A stretch of DNA of 64,000 bases from Hallella seregens ATCC 51272. Lineage in GTDB: Bacteria; Bacteroidota; Bacteroidia; Bacteroidales; Bacteroidaceae. Shown one piece after another: positions 9,421 through 58,431 of the stretch. A program made the position numbers and the translations under genes. Below the pieces are notes generated by a model. That model saw only the letters and a list, made by a program, of their open reading frames with translations. It was not told where the DNA came from and did not search any database. Location of the stretch: NCBI RefSeq assembly GCF_000518545.1, contig NZ_JADU01000007.1, positions 97,091-161,090 on the forward strand. The letters run 5' to 3'. How positions within the stretch are numbered: position 1 is the first letter of the stretch; every line of letters begins with the position of its first letter.

Positions 9421-9530
9421 GCGATTGCGGCGTAACGGCCGTGCGATTGCGGCGTGGCGGCCGTGCGATTGCGGCGTGGCGGCCTCGCGTTTACGGCGTA
9501 AAACACATGCGATTGCGGCTTCTTCATTCT
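9421..9530. repeat. 22-bp tandem repeat array A (5 units)
   Basis: Five head-to-tail units of exactly 22 bp start at 9421, 9443, 9465, 9487 and 9509. Units 1-3 are nearly identical (GCGATTGCGGCGT, then variable, then GGCC). Unit 4 matches the form seen elsewhere (GCGTTTACGGCGT). The array lies in a convergent gap between the GT2 gene and the M23 peptidase gene. A 22-base unit does not keep a reading frame, so the array is unlikely to be coding. It belongs to the same family as arrays B, C and D. Confidence 0.85.
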
Positions 9531-20546: not shown

Positions 20547-21269
20547 ATGATGATACACCTCAAAGACATCAACAAGACCTACTTTGGAGCCCAGCCCTTG
20601 CACGTGCTCAAGGGCATCAGTCTTGACATTGACGAGGGCGAGTTCGTTTCAATCATGGGTGCTTCAGGGTCGGGCAAGTCCACCTTATTAAATATACTCG
20701 GCATTCTCGACAACTATGACAGCGGTGAATACACGCTGGCCGACACGCTCATTCGCGACCTCAGCGAGAAGCGCGCCGCCGAATACCGCAACCGTTTCAT
20801 CGGTTTCATCTTCCAGAGCTTCAACCTCATCGGCTTCAAGACAGCCGTGGAGAACGTGGAACTGCCTCTGTTCTACCAAGGTGTGTCGCGCCGCAAGCGT
20901 CATCAGATGGCCCTCGACTATCTGGATCGGCTGGAGCTTTTGCCCTGGGCCGACCACTATCCCAACGAAATGTCGGGCGGACAAAAGCAGCGCGTGGCCA
21001 TCGCCCGCGCCCTCATCACCAACCCCAAGATTATTCTCGCCGACGAACCGACGGGTGCCCTCGACTCGAAGACGAGTGTGGAGGTGATGGCCCTGCTCAA
21101 GAAACTCAACGTCGAAGAGCGCAAAACCATCGTCGTGGTGACGCACGAGAGCGGCGTGGCCAACGAGACCAACAAGATTATCCATATCAAAGACGGACTC
21201 ATCGGCTGTATCGAGGAGAACCTCGACCACAACGCCTCGCCCTTTGGAGGCGCGGGACCGATGAAGTAA
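20547..21269 (+). CDS. MacB/LolD-type ABC transporter ATPase
   Basis: The 240-residue ATPase has Walker [10 protein letters not shown], the MacB/LolD-type signature [15 protein letters not shown], Walker [13 protein letters not shown] and the usual insert [15 protein letters not shown]. Start is ATG 20547 or the next ATG. Together with the two following FtsX-like permeases and the fusion protein it forms a MacAB-like tripartite pump (exporter of macrolides, peptides or lipids), although the outer-membrane TolC partner is not in the window. Its TAA stop (21267-21269) is the first three bases of an ATTCAAA element. Confidence 0.93.
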
Positions 21270-21300
21270 TTCAAAACTTAGGATTCAAAATTCACGATTT
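21267..21300. repeat. 34-bp ATTCAAA element, degenerate copy
   Basis: This 34-base stretch is a diverged copy (about 29 of 34 positions) of the element seen intact at 39004, 39681 and 45515. Its first three bases are the stop codon of the ATPase gene. It lies between that gene and the first permease gene. Confidence 0.7.
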
Positions 21301-25075: not shown

Positions 25076-25837
25076 ATGGTCAAGCTCAACAACAACTTCC
25101 TGCCCCAGGATGGGCAGTACCAGCACCTGCTGGTCTACAAGAAAGCAGAGTGCATTTGCGACCTCACTTTCTACTTCTGCCACCACTTTCTCGACAAATA
25201 CAAGGATCGTACCGTGGACCAAATGATTCAGGCGGCGCGCTCGGGCAAGCAGAATATCGTAGAGGGAACGGCAGCGTCGGCCACCTCGAAAGAGACGGAA
25301 ATCAAGTTGATGAATGTGGCCAAGGCCAGCCATCAAGAGTTGTTGGAGGACTATCGCGACTATCTTGCCCACCACGGCTTCCGGGTATGGCAGCCTGGCG
25401 ATGCCAAATACGAGCAGGTGCGCCGGGCCTGCCGGGCCCACAACGACCGCGAATACTACATGCGCGACATCGACAAACGCAGTGACGAGGCACTGGCCAA
25501 TATCTGCATCACGCTCATCTGCCAGGAAGACCAGATGCTGCGCAACTACATAGAGAAGCTCAAACAGAAGTTTCTGGAGACCGGCGGCATCAAGGAAGAG
25601 ATGACGCGCGGCCGTCTGGCCTACCGTCAGCAGCACCCGCAGAGCCACCAGTACCCGGCCAACGACCATGAGTATGCCCGCCGCTGCGACGAGCTCATAC
25701 GGCGCGAACAGGCCGCCTTGCAGCGCGAACAGCAGTTGGCAGCCCGCGAACGTCAGCTCGCCATCCGTGAGCAGGAAATAGCCCGGCTACTCAGAATGGC
25801 GGGAAGTGAGGGAATAGGGGAGGATAAGCAGCCGTAG
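25076..25837 (+). CDS. Four-helix-bundle protein with coiled-coil tail
   Basis: The 253-residue protein (ATG 25076; an upstream GTG at 25040 overlapping the previous gene is less likely) has an N-terminal helical domain of the four-helix-bundle type related to the proteins encoded in 23S rRNA intervening sequences, with the motif ARSGKQNIVEGTAASATSKE. The C-terminal third (about 205-245) is a charged coiled coil rich in REQ/ARE repeats. It is 22 bases after the fusion-protein gene and probably the last gene of that operon. The function is unknown; a structural or oligomerising role is a guess. A smaller relative lies at 39047-39427. Confidence 0.75.
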   Translation: MVKLNNNFLPQDGQYQHLLVYKKAECICDLTFYFCHHFLDKYKDRTVDQMIQAARSGKQNIVEGTAASATSKETEIKLMNVAKASHQELLEDYRDYLAHHGFRVWQPGDAKYEQVRRACRAHNDREYYMRDIDKRSDEALANICITLICQEDQMLRNYIEKLKQKFLETGGIKEEMTRGRLAYRQQHPQSHQYPANDHEYARRCDELIRREQAALQREQQLAARERQLAIREQEIARLLRMAGSEGIGEDKQP

Positions 25838-30024: not shown

Positions 30025-30112
30025 GCGTCCACGCCGTGTTCGCCTCGTGTCTGCGGCGTAATCGCAGGGCGTTTGCGGCGTTTTCGTCCGGCGTTTACGG
30101 CGTGACGGCGGC
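30025..30112. repeat. 22-bp tandem repeat array B (4 units)
   Basis: Four 22-bp units start at 30025, 30047, 30069 and 30091. Units 3 and 4 read GCGTTTGCGGCGT and GCGTTTACGGCGT in their first 13 positions. The array lies between susF and the DUF6722-like gene, downstream of the sus terminator. Confidence 0.8.
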
Positions 30113-37980: not shown

Positions 37981-39006
37981 ATGAAACAATCTGCACCTGT
38001 CACGATGAAAGATATAGCCGAGGCACTGGGCGTGTCGGTGGCTACGGTGTCGCGTGCCCTCAAGGACAGCCCGCGCATCAGCGGCGCACAGCGCGAGAAA
38101 ATAAAGAGGTACGCGCGCGAACATAATTATTATCCCAATGTGTTGGCCGAGAGTTTGCGCAACAGCCGCACCCGACCGCTCAAGATCATCGGCGTTATTG
38201 TACCCCAGTTTGCACATTTCTACTTTGCCTCAGTGCTTAGTGGCATCGAGCAGGAGGCCGCCTCGCGGGGCTACACCATTATGGTGGGACAGAGTGCCGA
38301 ACAGTACAACCGCGAGGTGTTGCTCTGCGAGCGGTTCTATGAGCACAAGGTGTGCGGCGTCATTGTTTCCCAAGCCAAGGACACGCAGCAGTACGAACAC
38401 TTCCAGAAACTCATGGACCACGGCATGCCTCTCGTGTTCTACGACCGCATCTGCACCGGCATCGACTGCAACCGTGTGGTGGTGGACGACTATCAGGGGG
38501 CTTTCAACGCCGTGACCCATCTCATCAATACGGGCTGCCGGCGCATTGCTTTCTACGGCTCTCCCATGACTCTCGAAATCTCCAAAAACCGCTACAACGG
38601 CTACCGCGACGCCCTGTTGCGCCAAGGCCTGCAGCCCGAGGAGCGGTTCTTCCGCATCTGCGACAACCGGGCCGACGCCGAGGCCATCACGCCCGGCCTG
38701 CTCTCACAGGGGGAGATTCCCGACGCTTTCTTCGCCGTGAACGACGATACGGCCATCGGTATTCTCTATACAGCCAAGCGTATGGGCTACCGCGTACCCC
38801 AAGACGTCTCCGTCTGCGGCTTCACCAACGGCTACCGCGCCGTGGCCTGCGACCCAATGCTCACCACCGTGGAACAGCGTGGTGTGCGCGTGGGCGAGGA
38901 GGCCACCAACATCCTTATCTCCAAAGTGGAGGGAGAAACTCCTCTGAACAAAGTGGAGAAACGCGTGGTGAGGACGCGGCTGGTCATCAGGGGAACAACG
39001 AAATAA
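37981..39006 (+). CDS. LacI-family regulator of the starch genes
   Basis: The 341-residue regulator has an N-terminal helix-turn-helix (TMKDIAEALGVSVATVSRAL, about 8-27) with the hinge helix (ESLRNSRTRPLKIIGV) and a periplasmic-binding-protein-like sensor domain (about 68-335). It replaces the SusR-type sensor seen in Bacteroides thetaiotaomicron. It is divergent from susC, and matching operators stand before the amylase, susC and malQ promoters. The upstream, fixed placing of these operators suggests activation, although LacI proteins usually repress. The effector is probably a maltose-type sugar. The TAA stop is the first three bases of the left inverted repeat (39004). Confidence 0.92.
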   Translation: MKQSAPVTMKDIAEALGVSVATVSRALKDSPRISGAQREKIKRYAREHNYYPNVLAESLRNSRTRPLKIIGVIVPQFAHFYFASVLSGIEQEAASRGYTIMVGQSAEQYNREVLLCERFYEHKVCGVIVSQAKDTQQYEHFQKLMDHGMPLVFYDRICTGIDCNRVVVDDYQGAFNAVTHLINTGCRRIAFYGSPMTLEISKNRYNGYRDALLRQGLQPEERFFRICDNRADAEAITPGLLSQGEIPDAFFAVNDDTAIGILYTAKRMGYRVPQDVSVCGFTNGYRAVACDPMLTTVEQRGVRVGEEATNILISKVEGETPLNKVEKRVVRTRLVIRGTTK

Positions 39007-39037
39007 TTCAAAATTCAGAATTCAAAATTCAAAATTA
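39004..39037. repeat. 34-bp ATTCAAA element, left inverted repeat of a cassette
   Basis: The element is built from 7-base ATTCAAA units and starts with the stop codon of the LacI-type gene. Its reverse complement recurs at 39681-39714 with 33 of 34 positions identical, so the two copies bracket a 711-base segment in inverted orientation. Confidence 0.85.
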
Positions 39038-39046
39038 CCGTGCGGC

Positions 39047-39427
39047 ATGAAGGAGTTGAACGATAATGTTGTTGTGATGAAGAGTATGGATTTTGCCGTG
39101 CGGTGCGTGCGGTTGGCCAAGTATCTGCGCGACACCCACCATGAATACGACCTGGCCAGCCAGATTCTTTGCAGCGGCACGAGCGTTGGCGCGAACGTGT
39201 GCGAGGCGTTGCGCGGACAGAGCCGGGCTGACTTTCGCGCCCGGATGAACATCTCTTTGCGTGAGGCCAACGAGTCGCAGTACTGGCTGGACTTGCTGTC
39301 TCGCGTGGGACTTATCTCCGAAAGGGAGTATCAAAGTTTGTTTGCCGATTGCACGGAACTGTGCAAACTCCTCATGGCTATCGTGAAGTCCACGGCCCAA
39401 AACAATGTGAATGGAACCCCAAAATAG
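39047..39427 (+). CDS. Free-standing four-helix-bundle protein (S23/rRNA-intron type)
   Basis: The 126-residue protein matches the four-helix-bundle family first seen inside intervening sequences of bacterial 23S rRNA. The signature is clear: the LRDTHHEYDLASQILCSGTSVGANVCEA region (about 28-55), then QSRADFRARMNISLREANESQYWLDLL. Family members form pentamers with a basic surface and may bind nucleic acid. The related Avd protein works with diversity-generating reverse transcriptases, but none is present here. The gene lies alone between inverted ATTCAAA repeats, between the regulator and transporter genes of the starch locus, which looks like an insertion. Confidence 0.88.
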   Translation: MKELNDNVVVMKSMDFAVRCVRLAKYLRDTHHEYDLASQILCSGTSVGANVCEALRGQSRADFRARMNISLREANESQYWLDLLSRVGLISEREYQSLFADCTELCKLLMAIVKSTAQNNVNGTPK

Positions 39428-39537
39428 TTAAAAGTCAGGCTGGCAGCCACTCCGTCAGCCTCATCTTATATCATCATGTCAGACCGTATAAAAAGTAAAA
39501 TCAACCCCCAAACAACGAAAAAATAGGATGTCGTCCA

Positions 39538-39669
39538 GTACGTCAACGCATGTCAGCCCGCGTATCACCGAATGATAGCCAGCGTATCACCGAATGATTG
39601 CCCGTGCGTCACCGGACGATTGTCAGTGTATCACCGGATAATTGCCAGCGTATCAACGGATGACCGCCT
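39538..39669. repeat. 22-bp tandem repeat array E (6 units, divergent)
   Basis: Six 22-bp units start at 39538, 39560, 39582, 39604, 39626 and 39648, with a partial seventh after them. The common form is GCGTATCACCG followed by RATGATTGCCA. The period equals that of arrays A-D, but the consensus differs beyond the leading GCGT. It lies between the four-helix-bundle gene and the right inverted repeat. Confidence 0.85.
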
Positions 39670-39680
39670 ACGCGTCAGCC

Positions 39681-39714
39681 TAATTTTGAATTTTGAATTT
39701 TGAATTTTGAATTA
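39681..39714. repeat. 34-bp ATTCAAA element, right inverted repeat of a cassette
   Basis: This is the inverted partner of 39004-39037. Its first eight bases, TAATTTTG, match the Bacteroidota -7 box and point toward the transporter gene. It also contains the TTG at 39700 that seems to start that gene. Confidence 0.85.
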
Positions 39715-41028
39715 AAAAACAAGCCCGATTTATCCTTTTGGGGCTTATGGAATCTGAGCTTCGGATTCTTCGGTGTGCAGATTGCTTATGCCCTGCAGAG
39801 TGCCAACATCTCGCGGATTTTCGCCACGCTCGGCGCCGATCCCCACAGTCTGAGTTACTTCTGGATACTGCCGCCGCTCATGGGCATACTGGTGCAGCCC
39901 ATCGTGGGCTCGTGTTCCGACCGCACCTGGACACGTTGGGGCCGCCGTATTCCCTACCTCTTCATCGGTGCAGCCGTGGCTGTACTGGTGATGTGTCTGC
40001 TGCCCAACAGTGGCTCTTTCGGCATGGCCGTGTCCACGGCCATGGTTTTTGGGCTCGTCTCGCTCATGTTTCTCGACACCTCCATCAACATGGCCATGCA
40101 GCCATTCAAGATGCTTGTAGGCGACATGGTGAACGAGCGGCAGAAGGCCAAGGCCTACAGCATCCAGAGTTTCCTGTGCAATGCAGGGTCGCTCGTGGGC
40201 TATGTGTTCCCCTTTGCTTTTGCCTTGCTGGGCATTGCCAACGTGGCTCCCAAGGGCGTGGTGCCCGACTCGGTGATCTACAGCTTCTATGTGGGCGCCG
40301 CCATCCTCATTCTTTGCGTCGTCTATACCGTGGTGAAAGTGAAAGAATGGAGTCCGCAGGAGTATGAACAGTACAACGGCAAGAAGACCGACAACGGGGC
40401 CTTGGACGACGAGGGCAGCGGCAACTGGCTGGTGCTGCTGCGCCATGCGCCCGCCACGTTCTGGAAAGTAGGCCTCGTGCAGTTCTTCTGCTGGTTTGCT
40501 TTTATGTATATGTGGACCTATACCAACGGCACTGTGGCCGCCAACTGCTGGGGCACCACCGATGTGACCAGCAGCGGTTACCAAGAGGCCGGCAACTGGG
40601 TGGGCATCCTCTTCGCCGTGCAGGCCATCGGTTCGGTGGTCTGGGCCCCCATCCTGCCCAAGTTCAGCAACCGCAAGATGGCCTATGCCGTGAGTCTGTT
40701 GCTGGGTGGCGTGGGCTTCGCGGCCTGTGCCGTGGTGCACGATCCCTACCTGCTCTTCGTGCCTTTCTTGCTCATCGGGGCTGCCTGGGCTGCCATGCTG
40801 GCCATGCCTTTCACCTTTGTCACCAATGCCCTGCAGGGTTATGGCCACATGGGTGCCTATCTGGGGCTCTTCAATGGCACCATTTGCATCCCGCAGATTG
40901 TGGCTGCAGCCATTGGCGGCACCTTGCTGGCCGTGGTGGGCAGTGTGCAGAGCCACATGATGATTGTGGCCGGCGTGAGTCTCGTGCTCGGTGCCGTTGC
41001 CGTGTCGTTCATCCGCGACGGCAAGTAG
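39700..41028 (+). CDS. MFS transporter, GPH/maltose type
   Basis: The 442-residue protein has 12 membrane helices and resembles the glycoside-pentoside-hexuronide type sugar:cation symporters found in starch loci, with the loop motif GSCSDRTWTRWGRRIPY between helices 2 and 3. It should take up maltose or short maltodextrins across the inner membrane. No ATG exists before helix 3. An in-frame stop at 39694 leaves only the TTG at 39700 (or ATT at 39697), inside the right ATTCAAA repeat, as start. The family N-terminus KPDLSFWGLWNLSFGFFGVQ begins a few codons later, so little is missing. A strong terminator follows at 41091. Confidence 0.9.
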   Translation: MNFELKNKPDLSFWGLWNLSFGFFGVQIAYALQSANISRIFATLGADPHSLSYFWILPPLMGILVQPIVGSCSDRTWTRWGRRIPYLFIGAAVAVLVMCLLPNSGSFGMAVSTAMVFGLVSLMFLDTSINMAMQPFKMLVGDMVNERQKAKAYSIQSFLCNAGSLVGYVFPFAFALLGIANVAPKGVVPDSVIYSFYVGAAILILCVVYTVVKVKEWSPQEYEQYNGKKTDNGALDDEGSGNWLVLLRHAPATFWKVGLVQFFCWFAFMYMWTYTNGTVAANCWGTTDVTSSGYQEAGNWVGILFAVQAIGSVVWAPILPKFSNRKMAYAVSLLLGGVGFAACAVVHDPYLLFVPFLLIGAAWAAMLAMPFTFVTNALQGYGHMGAYLGLFNGTICIPQIVAAAIGGTLLAVVGSVQSHMMIVAGVSLVLGAVAVSFIRDGK

Positions 41029-41134: not shown

Positions 41135-41223
41135 CCCTACCATTGTGCCGTCATTCCCCCATCATTCCCTGGCCCCACTGCGCCAACCCTGCAATCGTCT
41201 TTTCATCACGGCGCAACGGCGTT

Positions 41224-41311
41224 GCGTTTACGCCGTCGTCGCCTCGCGTTTGAGGCTTTTTCACGCCACGTTTACGCCGCCATCGCACTGCGTTTGCGCC
41301 GTTGTCGCTGC
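41224..41311. repeat. 22-bp tandem repeat array C (4 units)
   Basis: Four 22-bp units start at 41224, 41246, 41268 and 41290, with a degenerate unit before them. Units 1, 3 and 4 follow the pattern GCGTTTRCGCCG, two or three variable bases, TCGC. The array lies just after the MFS terminator and upstream of the mgtC promoter. Confidence 0.8.
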
Positions 41312-41395
41312 GGCCCGACGGGGTGGCGGATGGCGTTGCGGGCCCTCGGGGCGCGTTTTCGGGCTGCCGGACTTGGCGGGTTGCCGATTTTTGCC

Positions 41396-42841: not shown

Positions 42842-47708
<4,867 letters not shown>

Positions 47709-54800: not shown

Positions 54801-55778
54801 AAGCGTTGGCTCAACTACAAGAAGCAGCCGCTGGAGATGAAGTTCGCCGACGGCTTCCAAGGAACCTTTGTTTCGCTCGGCCTGAACCCCGACCGGTGGA
54901 AAGAAGAGGGGAAGAATTCAAAATTCAAAATTCAAAATTCAAAATTCACAGACTACAGTTTACAGTTCACAGACCATAGTTCACAGCTCAAAGACTACGG
55001 TTCACAGCCCGAAGACCAAAGGCCTTGTGCCGCCATCATCCGTGAAAAGGGAACGAATGGCGAGCGTGAGATGGCCTATGCACTGTGGTTGGCCGGCTTT
55101 GAAGTCAAGGATGTGATGATGACTGACTTGATAAGCGGCCGCGAAACACTGGACGAGGTGAACATGATTGTGTTCTGCGGCGGCTTCTCCAACTCCGATG
55201 TGCTCGGCTCTGCCAAGGGATGGGCGGGCGCTTTCCTCTTCAATCCCAAGGCCAAGGAGGCGCTCGACCGCTTCTATGCCCGCCCGGACACGCTGTCGCT
55301 CGGTATCTGCAACGGGTGCCAACTCATGGTGGAGCTCAACCTTATCAATCCTGAACACAAGCACCGCTCGCACCTGACGCACAACCAGAGCCGGAAGTTC
55401 GAGAGCCAGTTCCTCAGCCTTTCCATCCCCCGGAACGAGAGCATCATGCTGGGAAGTCTGGGTGGCAGCAAGCTCGGCATCTGGGTGGCCCACGGCGAGG
55501 GCCGTTTCTACCTGCCCGAACCCGAGGACCATTACAACGTCGTGGCCAAGTACAACTATGCCGAATATCCCGGCAACCCCAATGGCAGCGACTACAACGT
55601 GGCCGCCATCTGCTCGGCCGACGGCCGCCATCTGGCCATGATGCCGCACCCCGAGCGGTCTGTCTTCCCCTGGCAGAACGCCTGGTACCCGGCCGACCGC
55701 CGTGCCGACGAGCTGACACCGTGGATGGAAGCCTTTGTCAACGCCCGCAAGTGGGTGGAGGAAAGGCTCGAAAAATAA
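51804..55778 (+). CDS. purL: Phosphoribosylformylglycinamidine synthase, single-chain, with in-frame repeat inserts
   Basis: PurL makes FGAM from FGAR, glutamine and ATP in purine synthesis. The 1324-residue protein has the synthetase domains (LKAETHNFPTTVEPF, GASDFGNKFGQPL, GGDNYRIGLGGGSVSS) and a C-terminal glutaminase with Cys1169 in GICNGCQLM. It appears about 80-90 residues longer than the usual Bacteroidales enzyme. Three low-complexity stretches explain this: residues about 294-330 (GTPSADAAPMGEGSG), about 372-396 (GTPLPSEGSG) and about 1037-1073 (an ATTCAAA element plus three 21-base units). All keep the reading frame, and the catalytic motifs are intact, so the enzyme is probably active. 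Confidence 0.95.
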   Translation: MILFFKTPKENIIATEMDHRPSEQETKELCWLYGDAEPLRAEKLEGFFVGPRREMITPWSTNAVEITQNMSLNGILRIEEFFPVKSEAADHDPMLQRMYRGLDQNVFTVNHEPEPIRHVDDLEKFNEEEGLALSPEEIEYLHKIEKANGRPLTDSEIFGFAQINSEHCRHKIFGGTFIIDGEERESSLFALIKKTTKENPGKILSAYKDNVAFAQGPVVEQFAPEDQSTSDWFRVKPIESVVSLKAETHNFPTTVEPFNGAATGTGGEIRDRMGGGVGSWPIAGTAVYMTSYPRSLSTGTPSADAAPMGEGSGHADTTARRAWVDSIPERPWLYQTPDQILIKASNGASDFGNKFGQPLIVGSVLTFEYQTSSADTATRPDGTPLPSEGSGAAPQVYGYDKVIMLAGGVGYGKKRDCLKKEPRPGNEIVVVGGDNYRIGLGGGSVSSVDTGRYTSGIELNAVQRANPEMQKRAYNLVRALVEEDVNPVVSIHDHGSAGHLNCLSELVEECGGEIDMTRLPIGDKTLSAKEIIANESQERMGLLIDEKHLDHVKRIAERERAPLYVVGRTTGDAHFSFRQGDGVKPFDLDVAQMFGHSPKTVMRDETVVRHYEDAVYSVEHLDEYLNNVLQLEAVACKDWLTNKVDRSVTGKVARQQTQGQVQLPLSDCGVVALDYRGEKGIATALGHAPQAGMADPAAGSVLSVAESLTNIVWAPVATDVNHPYPVQNLNLSANWMWPCRSQKGEDARLYTAVEALSDFCCSLGLNVPTGKDSLSLSQQYPDGRKVIAPGTVIVTSGAEVSDVKQTVSPVMVNDKNSSLYYIDFSFDRLRLGGSALAQTLGKIGSDVPTVKNPEYFADCFNAVQELIKKGWIMAGHDISAGGLIITLLEMTFANVEGGMHVNLHDVAPESGDDVVKMLFAENPGVVIQVSDQHKKDLREYFEANGIGYAKIAYPTPAERKIVVVKGDFHHEFDIDALRDTWYKTSYLLDRNQSRNGMARKRWLNYKKQPLEMKFADGFQGTFVSLGLNPDRWKEEGKNSKFKIQNSKFTDYSLQFTDHSSQLKDYGSQPEDQRPCAAIIREKGTNGEREMAYALWLAGFEVKDVMMTDLISGRETLDEVNMIVFCGGFSNSDVLGSAKGWAGAFLFNPKAKEALDRFYARPDTLSLGICNGCQLMVELNLINPEHKHRSHLTHNQSRKFESQFLSLSIPRNESIMLGSLGGSKLGIWVAHGEGRFYLPEPEDHYNVVAKYNYAEYPGNPNGSDYNVAAICSADGRHLAMMPHPERSVFPWQNAWYPADRRADELTPWMEAFVNARKWVEERLEK
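52697..52770 (+). repeat. In-frame GC-rich insert 1 in purL
   Basis: This G+C-rich, partly self-complementary stretch encodes GTPSADAAPMGEGSG and HADTTARR in a loop where relatives have a short PRTEADRPW-like link (recalled, not compared). It resembles insert 2 in DNA and peptide (GTP, then EGSG), in the same orientation and frame. Confidence 0.6.
52921..52986 (+). repeat. In-frame palindromic insert 2 in purL
   Basis: The insert contains a perfect 7-bp hairpin (CCCCTCC 52953-52959 with GGAGGGG 52964-52970) followed by TCGGGGG. This is the form of a GC-rich hairpin often seen between genes in Bacteroidota. It encodes ADTATRPDGTPLPSEGSGAA within purL. Confidence 0.65.
54914..55014 (+). repeat. 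In-frame ATTCAAA element plus 21-bp repeats in purL (insert 3)
   Basis: Bases 54914-54950 are a copy of the ATTCAAA element with its first base changed from T to G. They are followed by three 21-base units (54952-54972, 54973-54993 and 54994-55014), encoding DYSLQFT, DHSSQLK and DYGSQPE. The insert falls in the linker between the synthetase and glutaminase domains. Confidence 0.85.
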
Positions 55779-55796
55779 TTCAATGAGGGAGTTAGG

Positions 55797-55886
55797 GAGT
55801 TAAGGAGTGATGGAGTTAAGACAAATGGTTGGAGGGAAGAAAACGTCCCAATAGCCTGTTGTCTTAACTCCATCACTCCTTAACTC
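55797..55886. repeat. Long perfect inverted repeat after purL
   Basis: A perfect 28-bp inverted repeat (55797-55824 with 55859-55886) surrounds a 34-base loop. The arms consist of degenerate AACTCC/GGAGTT units, and weaker pairing extends outward. It lies in the 132-base gap between purL and the chromate transporter and could form a terminator-like hairpin, or be an element related to the shorter AACTCC runs at 6384-6400 and 47731-47749. Confidence 0.8.
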
Positions 55887-55910
55887 CGTCACTCCAATAA
55901 TTTCCAACGC

Positions 55911-58202: not shown

Positions 58203-58312
58203 TGGCTTGCGCCGTTTTCGCCTCGCGTTTGCGCCGTCATCGCCCCGCGTTTACGGCGCGATCGCGTGGCGTTTACGCCGTTGTCGCGCGGCGTTTGCAC
58301 CGCCATCGCGCC
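58203..58312. repeat. 22-bp tandem repeat array D (5 units)
   Basis: Five 22-bp units start at 58203, 58225, 58247, 58269 and 58291. Units 2-5 begin GCGTTTRC and have TCGC near positions 16-19 after two variable bases. The array lies in the gap after the GH43 gene and before the OmpA-like gene. Confidence 0.85.
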
Positions 58313-58431
58313 GCCGCCGCGGCATGCAGCCGGCAGGTTGGCGAAGTCGGGGAGAGTGAACGATGCGTTATTTCTTGCCCCGTGTTGTGATAAAATGTAA
58401 TCCAAAAGGCTTGTTTGTGAACGAAAAGTCG

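Follow-up and report, generated by a model that had tools for sequence, protein, structure and literature searches.

What is the 711-bp segment (positions 39004-39714) that separates the gene for a LacI-type regulator (37981-39006) from that for an MFS transporter in Hallella seregens ATCC 51272? The segment lies in a 64,000-nucleotide stretch of DNA that we analyzed as a whole (the window). An initial annotation placed it between these two neighbors, as we also found, and suggested a small mobile or mobilized element without its own transposase, with inverted ends, one gene for a four-helix-bundle (4HB) protein, and six 22-bp repeats. We conclude that this cassette belongs to a widespread family of elements. 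It has the following parts.

39004..39037, + strand: left arm, a 34-bp AATTCAA heptamer array (repeat analysis, TRF)
39047..39427, + strand: S23/IVP four-helix-bundle gene, 126 aa (PF05635, TIGR02436)
39513..39688, + strand: 22-bp tandem repeats in the interval from the gene to the right arm (TRF core 39556-39663)
39671..39720, + strand: right end and subterminal sequence, recurring elsewhere in the genome
39681..39714, - strand: right arm, an inverted heptamer array

The ends of the cassette are terminal inverted repeats made of oppositely oriented heptamer arrays. The arms at 39004-39037 and 39681-39714 are identical at 33 of 34 positions (97%) when compared as an inverted repeat, exactly as first annotated, and each is a 4.6-copy tandem array of the 7-bp unit AATTCAA (TRF). 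In RNA the single mismatch would form a G.U pair, which allows pairing along the full 34 positions. No inverted repeat was found inside a single arm at the search's minimum length of 12. The arms also touch the neighboring reading frames: the first bases of the left arm, TAA, are the stop codon that continues the LacI frame, and the right arm includes the TTG (39700) that opens the MFS frame, the ATGAAACAR-type start of relatives being absent. Among the 44 open reading frames of at least 100 aa in the window, the 4HB gene had the highest complementarity between its flanks (31.5; the runner-up scored 11.0). Rfam reported no RNA family at the gathering threshold in 38700-39950, and there were no reverse transcriptase and no template or variable repeats inside the 711 bp.

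The 22-bp repeats do not appear to be the core of the element. TRF reported 4.9 copies at 39556-39663 and a 22-nt register can be traced across 39513-39688, which makes six repeats a fair description. A role for them as the core is unsupported, as there are four other 22-bp arrays in the window and an ORF-less copy elsewhere in the genome (L268) shares the right end of the cassette and carries other repeats; the sequence at 39671-39720 is 94% identical over 50 bp to that beside the right arm of this copy. Tandem arrays of GCGTTTACGCCG-like 22-bp units are located at 9421-9519, 30052-30103, 41223-41312, and 58207-58314 of the window, with no link to heptamer arms in the parts inspected.

The enclosed gene encodes a member of the S23/IVP family. 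The protein scored 92 bits against PF05635 (cut-off 33.8) and 100.5 bits against TIGR02436 (cut-off 24), bearing out its first assignment as a four-helix bundle, and it shares the fold of the solved members of the family. PF05635 was the sole Pfam match, and the protein is not a RAYT tyrosine transposase. The cassette encodes no recognizable transposase, nuclease, or reverse transcriptase. PADLOC gave only one partial, weak match to defense systems (E 0.0011), PHROGs gave none, and no recent, near-identical copy of the 4HB gene of the window was found. The window also contains a gene for a longer 4HB protein with a suffix domain (25076-25834; TIGR04258 76 bits, TIGR02436 30.7 bits); a period-7 array was absent from the locus fetched for this IVP-like gene (L002).

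The ends of the cassette belong to a class of arrays that is dispersed throughout the genome. The array pattern had 65 and 53 (overlapping) matches in the genome and none with the reversed control. In a DNA search of the genome, 60 matches were listed, 56 of which were counted as array units at 35 sites (units within 1 kb being merged), and 48 of the 56 had aligned lengths of 31-39 nt. A 4HB gene was absent from 34 of the 35 sites. Neighboring units no more than 1 kb apart formed eight inverted pairs, all AATTCAA...TTGAATT and none in the opposite arrangement, and 13 same-strand pairs. The 4HB gene lies within one inverted pair, and the remaining seven pairs enclose 60-231 bp. Among 57 units in fetched loci, there were 24 sense and six antisense placements close behind the stop codon of an open reading frame, and 30 units had neither. 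We therefore rejected unique terminal repeats as the ends of the cassette: of the original description, inverted ends, a single gene, no transposase, and probable mobility hold, and the ends themselves are dispersed arrays. We read the gene-free sites as ORF-less relatives of the cassette because the inverted pairs have a single topology (8:0) and because the abundance of arrays tracks the cognate 4HB subfamily (see below).

Related heptamer arrays are present in the window at 21269-21299, 45516-45547, and 54915-54948. The last of these opens a stretch (54915-55016) in which a 4.9-copy AATTCAA array is followed by 21-bp repeats, in frame within purL (FGAM synthase), adding NSKFKIQNSKF... to the protein. 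Directly behind the purL stop codon (55786-55895) is an ORF-less hairpin, an inverted pair of GGAGTTAA 8-mer arrays, a second array type with 21+15 pattern matches in the genome. There is also a 207-bp repeat that opens with an AATTCAA array; its two full copies, the only ones among the matches listed in this genome, are 93% identical (C3:80582-80788, L264 1283-1489; C3:105904-106110, L265 1105-1311).

Inverted arrays flank 4HB genes in many other genomes, as the initial annotation had proposed to check. For each match, we compared the 350 bp before it with the 450 bp after it and scored their complementarity, using a threshold score of at least 14. The threshold was reached at 24 of the 30 best-scoring TIGR02436 loci of the genus, at 15 of 30 TIGR02436 loci of the phylum (the other 15 fell below it), and at one of 27 ParE control loci of the genus (three of 30 were too short). 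Inverted arrays flanked 29 of 30 genus loci of the window's 4HB subfamily, the window included. Across phyla, 47 of 80 loci were flanked and 33 were below threshold; mismatched pairings of these loci reached it in 21 of 800 cases. With oriented and narrower flanks, the counts were 18/29 (genus), 12/30 (phylum), 29/29 (window subfamily), and 39/79 (cross-phylum). The pattern is thus nearly universal in the window's 4HB subfamily and partial elsewhere. Loci scoring at least 16 included, according to record titles, members of Bacteroidota, Chloroflexi, Planctomycetota, Acidobacteria, Clostridia, Cloacimonadota, Parcubacteria, Alphaproteobacteria, and Deltaproteobacteria. In 44 of the 55 genus loci in which both neighbors were called (59 were examined), both were co-directional with the 4HB gene.

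The arms share a length and a period. Over 86 loci scoring at least 16, the median arm length was 34 nt, and the best period was 7 in 57 and 8 in 24. A period-7/8 array was present on either side of the gene in 28/29 loci of the window subfamily, 21/28 of the genus, 8/30 of the phylum, and 45/78 across phyla; shuffled flanks had none. We considered whether period 7 is maintained because it provides every frame with a stop or start codon. Stops in three frames were found in the left arms of 47 of 86 loci and the right arms of 33 of 86, compared to a shuffled expectation of 16.9, an effect too weak for a rule. Neutral slippage, in which AT-rich heptamer microsatellites have arisen by chance beside a small gene, is highly improbable. 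Heptamer arrays are indeed common in this genome, also occur solo, and are even found within the purL frame. However, the units are mostly of one length, the inverted pairs have a single topology, the ParE controls were almost always negative, and the arms match each other and follow the protein, as described below.

The two arms of a locus match each other better than they match arms of other loci in the same gap. In the frdA-frdB gap (neighbors identified by Pfam), 12 loci have differing units, and median complementarity was 16.25 within a locus and 9.0 between loci. The corresponding medians were 23.0 versus 14.75 for LacI-MFS, 27.0 versus 10.5 for pta-ackA, and 26.25 versus 21.25 and 28.25 versus 23.0 at two further sites. 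At one site (c8-c10) the order was reversed (26.5 within, 28.75 between); loci there share one unit. Across the seven species with a filled LacI-MFS gap, 216 of 238 cells were paired and 11 of 34 pairs had changed on both sides, a level of pairing reached by none of 500 shuffles, with a register set by hand that favors pairing. Folding 741 nt as RNA gave a 34-bp outer stem whose loop contains the gene (z -4.25, 20 shuffles). Homogenization of arrays by recombination could resemble selection on the stem.

The type of array follows the subfamily of the 4HB protein. For loci at different gaps, protein similarity and arm similarity were correlated (Mantel r 0.46, 86 loci, 0/1000 permutations). The correlation was r 0.66 in 44 genus loci and r 0.37 in 42 non-genus loci (0/1000 permutations each), with same-gap pairs removable only among the genus loci; linked inheritance could be a source of it. 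The pta-ackA gap illustrates the association: B-type 4HB genes (L085, L088, L089) have GGAGTTA arms there, and a window-type gene (L241) has AATGCTTA arms. The same association appeared in the number of arrays per genome. The median number of AATKCA (A) arrays was 4 in 69 genomes with a window-type 4HB gene and 0 in 31 genomes with none or a weak match (P 2e-5), and that of GGAGTT (B) arrays was 5 in 25 genomes with a B-type gene and 0 in 75 without (P 1e-4). The crossed tests gave P 0.24 for A arrays on the B-type protein and P 0.022 for B arrays on the window-type protein, the latter tested alone. In a joint rank regression, t was 4.46 (A) and 3.50 (B) for the array's own protein and -0.32 and 1.28 for the other; these statistics, like the other 100-genome comparisons, treat related genomes with kinship ignored. 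Some genomes have arrays despite having no strong window-type 4HB match (G016, 52 matches; G101, 17; G003, 12; G018, 12).

The gap between the LacI and MFS genes is filled in some species and empty in others. We surveyed this genome and 39 others, 23 of them from the same genus. The MFS gene was matched in 17 same-genus genomes, with LacI also matched in 15 and its end read by eye in two, and none of the 17 has a 4HB gene between the two. The LacI end was no more than 230 bp from the MFS motif in 16 of these genomes, and in G016 the matches were 206 bp apart. Several of these gaps contain short arrays built from other units (L038, L039, L040, L042), and one has an ORF-less hairpin (L036). Besides the window, the gap was filled in six other species, all of them among the 30 loci retrieved from a 249-genome search, so that filled and empty sites come from different samplings. 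The initial annotation had named two observations that would refute mobility, repeats found equally often without a 4HB gene and the lack of any empty site; the repeats do stand without such a gene at most of their sites, and empty sites do exist. It had also proposed a search for target-site duplications. We found none, with empty sites too diverged (69-75% identity in the MFS part) to place exact junctions and a left end that is fused to the stop codon, and we saw no movement in the present lineage.

At the filled sites, the arms supply stop and start codons to the neighboring genes. By reading, six of the seven sites have a left arm continuous with the LacI stop TAA, and six of seven have an MFS frame that starts within the right arm (with ATG at five sites and TTG in the window); in G503, ATGAAACAA is retained behind the right arm. 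The seven 4HB proteins of this gap do not group as a single clade (AU p 0.023); repeated filling of the gap, or an exchange of what it contains, is therefore probable. Between the window and G549, synonymous divergence of the 4HB copies (0.71) exceeds that of the neighboring MFS genes (0.49). Multiple copies also occur within one genome. In G110, three 4HB copies sit in separate gaps of a single operon that also contains MBOAT and glycosyltransferase genes, and the second and third copies share 84.7% identity across 674 bp of intergenic sequence. In this polysaccharide operon (L307, G110:C4:44200-51500), the three elements are co-oriented, and their arms appear to consist of ~21-bp units with small palindromes and TTGAAC. 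In several same-genus species, 4HB elements are found in the frdA-frdB and pta-ackA gaps of core metabolic operons (e.g., L069, L088), as if these gaps were tolerant landing places.

We consider it probable that the cassette is a compact element whose 4HB protein recognizes its own type of array and promotes the spread of array-ended units into the spaces separating co-transcribed genes. Its anatomy is established: a 4HB gene lies between two inverted arrays of a genome-dispersed 7-bp repeat. In the cell, the arms would close a 34-bp RNA stem with the gene in its loop, and binding of the array or hairpin by the predicted recognition protein would drive copying. Because no transposase, nuclease, or reverse transcriptase is recognizable in the element, another enzyme, a putative helper, would have to carry out the chemistry. 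The ORF-less hairpins would be non-autonomous progeny.

Two other explanations could account for part of these findings. The cassette might be a resident module for mRNA processing or regulation. In that case its intergenic stem would be cut by RNase III or tune expression, its 4HB protein would be an RNA-binding regulator that has been domesticated, and the arrays would serve as regulatory sites of the host and not as mobile units. The co-directional neighbors, the frequent sense placement of arrays behind stop codons, and the covariation of the arms are consistent with this, and RNase III has been reported to cut the stem of a 23S rRNA intervening sequence (IVS) in vitro (PMC4990558). We nevertheless think it unlikely, as the patchy occupation of a single gap, the presence of several lineages there, three copies in one operon, and the unrelated host genes involved fit spreading better. 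Alternatively, a host transposase might act on the array ends of an ordinary inverted-repeat cassette in which the 4HB gene is a passenger. Inverted ends and ORF-less, MITE-like pairs would be expected of such a cassette, and the internal minisatellite has a parallel in the BrickBuilt MITE of Porphyromonas gingivalis (PMC4596501). However, the enclosed gene is repeatedly of the same family across many phyla, the end sequence follows the enclosed gene, which is not predicted for a passenger, and there is no visible target duplication; we regard this explanation as quite improbable.

If the 4HB protein does act on its own arrays, the consequences would extend beyond this locus. Structures of the S23/IVP family were solved in 2006-2007 (2GSC, 2RLD), and the family was still called functionally uncharacterized in 2024 (PMC11270868). 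Reading the cassette as a likely self-spreading element would give this long-orphaned family a role. The link to arrays also yields testable predictions in both directions, with every protein predicted to target its own array and every type of array to have its cognate protein as driver. Should movement be shown, bacteria would have elements with hairpin ends whose spread depends on a small protein that has no transposase domain. A broader proposal, which we hold only tentatively and consider somewhat doubtful, is that there is a separate class of transposase-free elements in which S23/Avd-like proteins read unit-specific RNA hairpins of heptamer arrays and drive intergenic copying with another enzyme. 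On this view, many unexplained 7-8-bp tandem repeats of bacterial genomes would descend from such elements as non-autonomous progeny, with the rRNA intervening sequences being a lineage that became established in rRNA.

A word search of the open-licence literature found no paper linking the S23/IVP family with heptamer arrays, although such a link could be in print elsewhere. Heptamer repeats are known from Cyanobacteria as STRR sequences. The TAACTGA repeats of Beggiatoaceae, Cyanobacteria, and Bacteroidetes are, like the arrays described here, short intergenic heptamer arrays with a patchy distribution across phyla, and unlike the inverted arms of the cassette they are described as nearly all direct (PMC4679880). 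Horizontal spread was suspected for them with no evident mechanism of transfer, and the terms "S23" and "helix bundle" are absent from the main text of that paper (PMC4679880). The BrickBuilt MITE resembles the cassette in being intergenic and multi-copy, with inverted-repeat ends and an internal 23-nt minisatellite; in the available portions of its description, a 4HB gene goes unmentioned and the ends are not described as heptamer arrays (PMC4596501).

The closest relatives by protein are the rRNA intervening sequences. The 23S rRNA IVS of Coxiella burnetii has an S23p ORF of the same family as the one ORF in a stem-loop of terminal inverted repeats, a stem of 28 bp versus 34 here, and a similar size class (428 nt versus 711 bp) (PMC4990558). 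The IVS is inside rRNA whereas the cassette is between protein genes, LacI and MFS, and heptamer arrays and dispersed ORF-less copies go unmentioned in the available portions of that report (PMC4990558). IVP ORFs are also reported in rRNA-gene insertions of CPR bacteria, where insertions with and without an ORF coexist (PMC11270868). In fold, the cassette protein may resemble Avd of diversity-generating retroelements (PDB 4DWL, 8UB7/8UB8; PMC10053308). In organization, a close parallel is REPIN/RAYT, which is described as having dispersed short repeats, inverted hairpin-forming doublets, and a cognate gene for each repeat group (PMC3116915). Traits of this type are present here, with eight inverted doublets among 56 units and a repeat type tied to the 4HB subfamily. 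RAYT is a tyrosine transposase (PMC3116915), whereas the cassette gene encodes a four-helix bundle and its units are heptamer arrays; the cassette is best read as an IVS-like and REPIN/RAYT-like element in which an S23/Avd-like protein would replace the transposase.
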